A stretch of 33,835 nt of DNA from an uncultured Microbacteriaceae bacterium. Its GTDB lineage: Bacteria > Actinomycetota > Actinomycetes > Actinomycetales > Microbacteriaceae. The translations under genes were made by a program, and so were the position numbers. The notes beneath the pieces are model-generated. The model saw only the letters and a list, made by a program, of their open reading frames with translations. It did not search any database and was not told the origin of the DNA. This document shows, one piece after another, positions 31,335 to 33,662 of this stretch (its first letter is position 1; each line of letters opens with the position of its first letter). The stretch is taken from NCBI GenBank assembly GCA_903857985.1, contig CAIOGW010000072.1:1-33835 (forward strand). The letters run 5' to 3'.

Positions 31335-31568
31335 ATGGCAAAGTCACGCGCACCCCAGCCCCGTAAGTCTCGCGACACCGAGGGAAGCCCAAATCCCGTT
31401 TGGTACAAGCCAGTGATGTTTGGCTTCATGCTCCTCGGTCTCGTGTGGATCATCGTTTTCTACATCTCGCAGGCGACCCTCCCCCTAGCCGCACTGGGGC
31501 AGTGGAACATTCTGGTCGGCTTTGGAATCGCCTTTATCGGCTTCCTGATGACCACGCGGTGGCGCTAG
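31335..31568 (+). CDS. crgA: Cell division protein CrgA
   Basis: NPVWYKPVMFGFMLLGLVWIIVFYISQATLPLAALGQWNILVGFGIAFIGFLMTTRWR. Confidence 0.95.
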   Translation: MAKSRAPQPRKSRDTEGSPNPVWYKPVMFGFMLLGLVWIIVFYISQATLPLAALGQWNILVGFGIAFIGFLMTTRWR

Positions 31569-31597
31569 CACTGATTACACGCGTGTGATTCTCCGCA

Positions 31598-31617
31598 TGT
31601 GGATAACCTGTGGATAA
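31598..31617 (-). promoter_or_regulatory. Two perfect DnaA boxes (TTATCCACA) 11 bp apart
   Basis: TGTGGATAAccTGTGGATAA on + strand. Confidence 0.75.
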
Positions 31618-31633
31618 GTAGCTTCTCGCGCCC

Positions 31634-32509
31634 TTAGGCGACAAAGATGGGCGCATGCGCGAGTGCTAGCGCGAGTTCTACTAGCACGAGTCCGCCGATG
31701 AGGTACCGCTGTAGTCGCAGTTTCTCTCGAGGCCGTGTTCGCGTGTAAATGAGTCCAACAATCACGCCGCCAATGAGGCCCCCCACGTGAGCCTGCCACG
31801 ACAGGTTAGACCCGGGAAGGAATCCCAGCACGACGTTGATAGCCACCAGGACAAGCAGTCCGGTCGAGTTACTGCCGAGGTGGCGAAGTATCACGAGGTA
31901 AGCGCCCATCAGGCCAAAGATCGCACCAGACGCACCGACGACGGAAGTGAACTCGAGGCCGAGGGCGAGGTCGAAGTACATCACACCGAGCGAACCGGCA
32001 AGGCCTGCGATGAGGTACAGGGTGATGAATCGGGCGCGGCCGAGAATAGATTCGAGCACCTGGCCGAACATCCACAGCGTGAACATGTTAAACAGAATGT
32101 GCAAGAACGACGTCGGTGAGTGCGCGAAAATCGCCGTGATCATGCGCCAGGGCTCGTAGGGGACGCCCGCCGCTGCATACTCGCCGAGTGAATAATAAGG
32201 CGAGTACAGCACCGCAGACGTCACATTGAGGCCGGGAATGAGTTGGAGCAGGTAAATCAGAACATTGATGCCGATGAGCGTGTAGGTAATGACCGGCCGC
32301 GATGCGCCCGGTCCGCGGAAAAATCTGCTTACCCCGCTCGAGCGTCGCGCCGTCGCGCCTCTACCGGCGCACGTCGGACAGAGCACACCAACCGGTGCCG
32401 GGTTCTGACACTGAGGGCACACCGGAGTTCCACATCGCTGGCACGTGATGAAGGTTAGTGTCTGCGGGTGCCGCGGGCACGCCGTCGGCTGTGGATCGGC
32501 ACTGCTCAC
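31634..32509 (-). CDS. Rhomboid-family intramembrane serine protease with N-terminal zinc-ribbon
   Basis: CPRHPQTLTFITCQRCGTPVCPQCQNPAPVGVLCPTC; VVGASGAIFGLMGAYL; WQAHVGGLIGG. Confidence 0.95.
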   Translation of the reverse strand: MSSADPQPTACPRHPQTLTFITCQRCGTPVCPQCQNPAPVGVLCPTCAGRGATARRSSGVSRFFRGPGASRPVITYTLIGINVLIYLLQLIPGLNVTSAVLYSPYYSLGEYAAAGVPYEPWRMITAIFAHSPTSFLHILFNMFTLWMFGQVLESILGRARFITLYLIAGLAGSLGVMYFDLALGLEFTSVVGASGAIFGLMGAYLVILRHLGSNSTGLLVLVAINVVLGFLPGSNLSWQAHVGGLIGGVIVGLIYTRTRPREKLRLQRYLIGGLVLVELALALAHAPIFVA

Positions 32510-33646: not shown

Positions 33647-33662
33647 TGTTTCACGTGAAATC
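33647..33662. promoter_or_regulatory. parS-like ParB-binding site TGTTTCACGTGAAATC
   Basis: 14 of 16 positions identical to TGTTTCACGTGAAACA; contains the 12-bp palindrome TTTCACGTGAAA. Confidence 0.75.

Follow-up and report, generated by a model that had tools for sequence, protein, structure and literature searches.

A tandem pair of DnaA boxes in a composite element

The question raised by this locus is what two perfect DnaA boxes are doing in a short gap between the 3′ ends of two convergent genes. The window (the whole 33,835-bp stretch of DNA that was analysed) is contig C72 of a metagenome-assembled genome (MAG), and all 1,608,400 bases of the MAG, in 212 contigs, were searched. In the window, the cell division gene crgA (31335 to 31568, plus strand; Pfam CrgA, E=3e-29) and a gene for a rhomboid family protease (31634 to 32509, minus strand; Pfam Rhomboid, E=1e-32) converge on a gap of 65 bp (31569 to 31633). 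Positions 31598 to 31617, TGTGGATAACCTGTGGATAA, contain two exact copies of TTATCCACA on the minus strand, located by sequence match at 31598 to 31606 (box II) and 31609 to 31617 (box III). They are 11 bp apart start to start, with 2 bp between them, and re-reading of the sequence confirmed the preliminary description of two exact boxes in the same orientation at this spacing in a 65-bp intergenic gap.

Boxes II and III are the only exact copies of TTATCCACA in the window. When one mismatch was allowed, nine boxes were found in the window, compared to a mean of 2.5 and a maximum of 7 in shuffled sequences. The MAG contains eight exact copies, relative to four in the reversed control, and therefore single boxes are not clearly enriched. 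The genome-wide scan for box clusters that had been proposed in the preliminary description was run, and the crgA–rhomboid pair was found to be the sole tandem pair in the MAG. A lone exact TTATCCACA is present just upstream of dnaK in the MAG (L019, 2434–2442; G000:C159:7033–7041).

The box pair is the right half of a larger composite element of about 43 bp, the other parts of which, a palindrome and an inverted box, had been overlooked. The palindrome, TTACACGCGTGTGA (31575 to 31588; family consensus TTACACSSGTGTAA, 14 bp), is the presumed site of a dimeric regulator. It is followed by box I, TTCTCCGCA (31589 to 31597, plus strand), which was recognised from the aligned family consensus as a degenerate form of TTATCCCCA inverted relative to boxes II and III. 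Palindrome, box I, and box pair are contiguous in the gap. The corresponding layout after crgA in Microbacteriaceae is the palindrome TTACACSSGTGTAA, the abutting inverted box TTATCCCCA, and then TGTGGATAA-cc-TGTGGATAAC. The consensus of 64 aligned elements was AATTACACSSGTGTAATTATCCCCA, usually followed by 11 to 14 bases that include the second box, often degenerate (e.g., TGTTAATAA), and then by TGTGGATAAC. Box III was the best conserved box, and TGTGGATAA was exact in 51 of the 64. The genus of the window has the same layout, with box III changed in three of six genomes.

Conservation of the element downstream of crgA

A lack of conservation in relatives had been named as evidence that would count against the site. 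Reading of the crgA-side gap in related genomes showed the opposite: the composite is strongly conserved, being common to most of the Microbacteriaceae genera sampled. In 82 distinct gaps, the density of boxes with up to one mismatch was 18.9 per kb, compared to 0.40 per kb in dinucleotide shuffles and 0.80 per kb upstream of crgA, and the palindrome was present in 83% of these gaps versus 0% of the control. Pairs of TGTGGAYAA boxes gave matches in 64 of 300 family genomes and none in the reversed control, mainly at oriC (dnaA–dnaN), in the crgA–rhomboid gap, and upstream of dnaB. The palindrome together with box I was matched 30 times over 395 genomes of the class (control, 0), and 29 of these matches adjoin the 3′ end of crgA.

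Beyond the family, the sequence downstream of crgA in 61 genomes from 32 other families contained 8.4 boxes per kb compared to 0.26 per kb in shuffles, with box order and spacing varying among the families; a recognisable element was not found downstream of crgA in some genomes (L219, L262, L263, and L270). A search of all GTDB species genomes with the full composite pattern yielded at least 120 matching stretches. Among the matches listed, 80 composite loci were examined, of which 68 were within 4 to 250 bp downstream of crgA, and the record titles of all 80, some MAG names aside, are actinobacterial. Acidimicrobiia are represented as well (L336, L361, and probably L290); in these, crgA is followed after about 130 bp by AATTACATGTATGTAATTATCCCCA...TGTGGATAAC. 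When phylum genomes from outside the class were added, just two of them (L440 and L441) showed the strict palindrome-plus-box-I pattern, and no CrgA match was found on the stretches examined around these two elements. Because patterns and not profiles were used, close matches are over-represented in these counts.

One alternative is that two boxes occur here by chance, as might be argued from the lack of a clear enrichment of single exact boxes in the MAG. The conservation of position and architecture over dozens of genera and many families, together with reversed controls of zero, makes the probability of this negligible; chance is refuted by the crgA-side position of the composite loci and by the box density of the 82 gaps.

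Independence of the element from the flanking genes

It had been suggested that DnaA acts here on the expression of crgA or the rhomboid gene, a claim that found no support. Both genes have the element at their 3′ end, the wrong end of each for a promoter, and a promoter role was rejected. Furthermore, the element is not tied to either neighbor: in genus g33 it lies beside the rhomboid gene although crgA is about 2 to 2.2 kb away (L417), in Gulosibacter its orientation relative to crgA is reversed (L289), and outside Microbacteriaceae the gene on its far side differs between families. Therefore, the element appears to be independent of neighboring genes, which argues against its serving as a promoter or a terminator. 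In M. tuberculosis dnaA mutants, the expression of both genes flanking the corresponding site, Rv0010c–Rv0011c, was unchanged (PMC7738170). A wider form of the suggestion, in which DnaA controls transcription of crgA, the rhomboid gene, or whichever gene is downstream in other families, could draw on the activity of DnaA as a transcription factor elsewhere and on family f11, in which the site is upstream of a bPH_6 gene (L216), but given the observations above we regard it as improbable.

Even less probable is a transcription terminator or RNA element serving the convergent genes. A palindrome in a convergent gap is what such an element might look like; however, there is no run of T residues after it, many genomes have separate GC-rich hairpins with T-runs that precede the element, the composite can be inverted, as in Gulosibacter, and the same palindrome recurs in promoters. 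An Rfam search of the element gave no match, and on this result, the inverted copy, and the separate visible hairpins, an RNA element or terminator was discarded.

Other locations of the palindrome

In the MAG, the crgA copy is the sole match to TTACACNNGTGTAA at up to one mismatch, and copies at whiB2 or nrdHIE were not found in the MAG at this threshold. In 60 genomes of the family, we found 30 occurrences of TTACACNNGTGTAA (reversed control, 0), of which 12 were in the crgA element, nine in the promoter of a WhiB gene, four upstream of nrdH-nrdI-nrdE, and five elsewhere or unclassified. The WhiB-promoter copies (L404, L406, L408, L413, L415, L416, L419, L421, and L423; site at 1501) come from nine genera and are located just after a TTGAC motif; we take this gene to be whiB2/whmD. 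At the nrdHIE copies (L405, L411, L414, and L424; site at 1501), an exact TTATCCACA directly follows the palindrome in L405, L411, and L424, and in at least two of the four loci the palindrome adjoins what we presume to be an NrdR box. The arrangement suggests a possible DnaA input to ribonucleotide reductase.

The simplest reading of these sequences is that a shared dimeric regulator would bind the palindrome at crgA, whiB2, and nrdHIE. Known regulators were compared as candidates. The BldD box, TNAC(N)5GTNA, differs from the palindrome, TNAC(N)6GTNA, the center of which is one base longer, and the BldM site, TCACcCgnncGgGTGA, was not matched. For HigA2, binding to ATCAC(N)6GTGAT at Rv0010c requires micromolar concentrations (PMC11205783), and this protein is not proposed here as the general palindrome binder.

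Distance of the element from oriC

In relatives that have both on one contig (G278, G149, G047, G106, and G223), the element is about 12 to 24 kb from oriC. In the MAG, dnaA is on contig C92 and hence on a different contig from the window. The gene order of C92 to its end is dnaA-dnaN-recF-gyrB-gyrA and the window ends in tRNA-Ala, so that the two contig ends are compatible with adjacency. The preliminary description had proposed an origin-proximal DnaA titration or regulatory site in addition to control of the flanking genes; of these, the origin-proximal DnaA site is supported, with the distance of 12 to 24 kb in the linked relatives and a DnaA-bound mycobacterial ortholog (PMC7738170) in its favor, and the control of crgA/rhomboid expression is not. 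The element is not oriC itself, as an oriC-like array is present on C92 between dnaA and dnaN. In this dnaA–dnaN gap (L016, 2223–2275; G000:C92), TTACCCACA, TTATCCACA, and CTATCCACA are exactly 22 bp apart and in one orientation. At a distance of about 2 kb from the box pair, positions 33647 to 33662 of the window read TGTTTCACGTGAAATC, which matches 14 of the 16 bases of the parS consensus, TGTTTCACGTGAAACA, and is likely a ParB site near the origin.

Correspondence to the mycobacterial Rv0010c–Rv0011c site

From gene neighborhood, we take family f11 to be mycobacterial and its bPH_6 gene to be the Rv0010c ortholog. The f11 sequence on the crgA side, before this bPH_6 gene (e.g., TCACACCGATGTGATTCATCCCCATTGGGGATAGCACTTGTGGATAAC, L216), fits the published description of the Rv0010c–Rv0011c (crgA) site and, as judged by alignment, matches the window element part by part. 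DnaA binding has been mapped across the M. tuberculosis genome, and binding at this site, both in vitro and in vivo, was seen by EMSA and IDAP-seq and by ChIP-seq in M. smegmatis, which yields the homologous five DnaA sites (PMC7738170). The locations at which we mainly found box pairs, oriC, crgA, and dnaB, are three of the five top M. tuberculosis DnaA sites (PMC7738170). Recurrent SNPs and IS6110 insertions are found at Rv0010c–Rv0011c in clinical isolates, nearly all of the mutations being inside a small palindrome of two DnaA-like boxes, and reconstruction of three of the SNPs led to longer cells and to an isoniazid shift of the kind seen in dnaA mutants (PMC7738170).

On the evidence of sequence and position, the window element is a positional ortholog of the Rv0010c–Rv0011c site of M. 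tuberculosis. Both are on the 3′ side of crgA, and both have a box cluster in which an inverted pair precedes a third box, with box I degenerate in the window; the mycobacterial site is near oriC, as the window element probably is, judging from the linked relatives. They differ in box sequences and spacing, in the downstream neighbor (bPH_6 there, rhomboid here), and in that DnaA binding has been shown in mycobacteria (PMC7738170), whereas it is predicted from sequence here. Given the exact boxes and this orthology, DnaA very probably binds the element in the organism of the window.

The authors of the mycobacterial study saw no obvious correspondence of the site in other species, and neither conservation outside mycobacteria nor the shared palindrome is described there (PMC7738170). 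The element is real, conserved, and partly known from one mycobacterial study, and within the literature searched, its Actinomycetota-wide conservation, composite layout, and shared palindrome are new.

A model for the function of the element

The crgA-side element is probably an old replication-control site. The fuller reading that we prefer, and which we hold to be somewhat better than an even bet, is that it is an ancient origin-proximal DnaA control site, orthologous to Rv0010c–Rv0011c, equipped with a palindrome regulator, and independent of the genes around it. In this model, DnaA would load on the head-to-tail boxes II and III, facing the weaker inverted box I, and a regulator dimer would occupy the palindrome beside box I. 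The element would serve as a gene-independent chromosomal handle that tunes how active or how available DnaA is close to oriC. In relatives, the promoters of whiB2 (division) and nrdHIE (dNTP synthesis) may be further targets of the palindrome regulator, which would tie the element to the cell cycle. That the element controls DnaA and not the local genes is, as a separate proposition, likely. Counter-evidence to a control site consists of the degenerate box I in the window, the changed box III in half of the genus members, genomes in which the element is unrecognisable, and the unchanged initiation rate of M. tuberculosis dnaA mutants (PMC7738170).

Known loci that modulate DnaA were compared with the element. 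DARS1 and DARS2 of E. coli are non-coding, with a core of three boxes, two of them opposed (PMC8682772). The element is likewise non-coding with a three-box core, and boxes I and II are opposed in the family consensus; however, the opposed boxes here abut or are 0 to 2 bp apart, compared to about 5 to 8 bp in DARS2 as read, and no IHF or Fis sites were recognised at the element. Because the spacing and accessory sites differ, we do not class the element as DARS, and to our knowledge DARS loci have not been described next to crgA. The E. coli locus datA, which shares with the element that it is non-coding and modulates DnaA through DnaA boxes, requires two boxes with an IHF site between them (PMC4585315). 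In contrast, boxes II and III are 2 bp apart with nothing between them and no flanked IHF site was seen, which excludes the element from the datA class.

The Streptomyces DnaA-box clusters H69, H24, and D78 are also near oriC in an actinobacterium. Boxes follow crgA in the large-genome family f26 as well (L240, L241, and L255), which we take to be Streptomyces, and these might be one of the three clusters. In f26, however, tens of bp separate the opposed boxes, and a clean palindrome is missing.

The direction of the control is a matter of lower confidence. One option is negative control by titration, similar to datA, in which a high-affinity sink that is duplicated soon after initiation would lower free or ATP-bound DnaA. 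Exact, closely spaced boxes near oriC would suit a sink, the DnaA boxes of E. coli are densest near oriC (PMC12371093), and titration was named as an option for the mycobacterial site (PMC7738170). Against it, mycobacterial site mutants form longer cells, like hypomorphic dnaA strains, which is not the over-initiation that loss of a sink should cause, and a pure sink would not need a fixed palindrome and inverted box; we consider the sink unlikely. A DnaA-supporting, DARS-like direction is favored over it with low confidence, because mutants of the mycobacterial site behave like strains with hypomorphic dnaA alleles (PMC7738170), with the provisos that a loss of DnaA binding by these SNPs is assumed and that the dnaA mutants themselves initiated at an unchanged rate.

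Also unlikely is that the locus represents an ancestral, origin-proximal Actinomycetota locus at crgA that is functionally analogous to DARS, with a dedicated palindrome regulator whose targets also include whiB2 and nrdHIE, and that this is the locus repeatedly mutated in clinical M. tuberculosis. If true, the locus and its regulator would couple initiation, division, and dNTP supply. For the preferred model of a DnaA control site, the conserved composite allows the mechanism of the M. tuberculosis site to be tested in harmless, fast-growing actinobacteria, its layout indicates the parts to mutate (the palindrome, box I, and boxes II/III), and the shared palindrome predicts a regulator that links DnaA, whiB2, and ribonucleotide reductase.

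DnaA-box loci upstream of dnaB

With this comparison, the DnaA-box loci of Microbacteriaceae outside oriC (crgA and dnaB) are mapped across genomes for the first time. In the MAG, no box at up to one mismatch was found in the stretch examined directly upstream of dnaB. Paralleling the DnaA site that M. tuberculosis has upstream of dnaB, tandem box pairs are present upstream of this gene in many Microbacteriaceae (L026–L029, L045, L046, L089, L092, L093, and similar loci).
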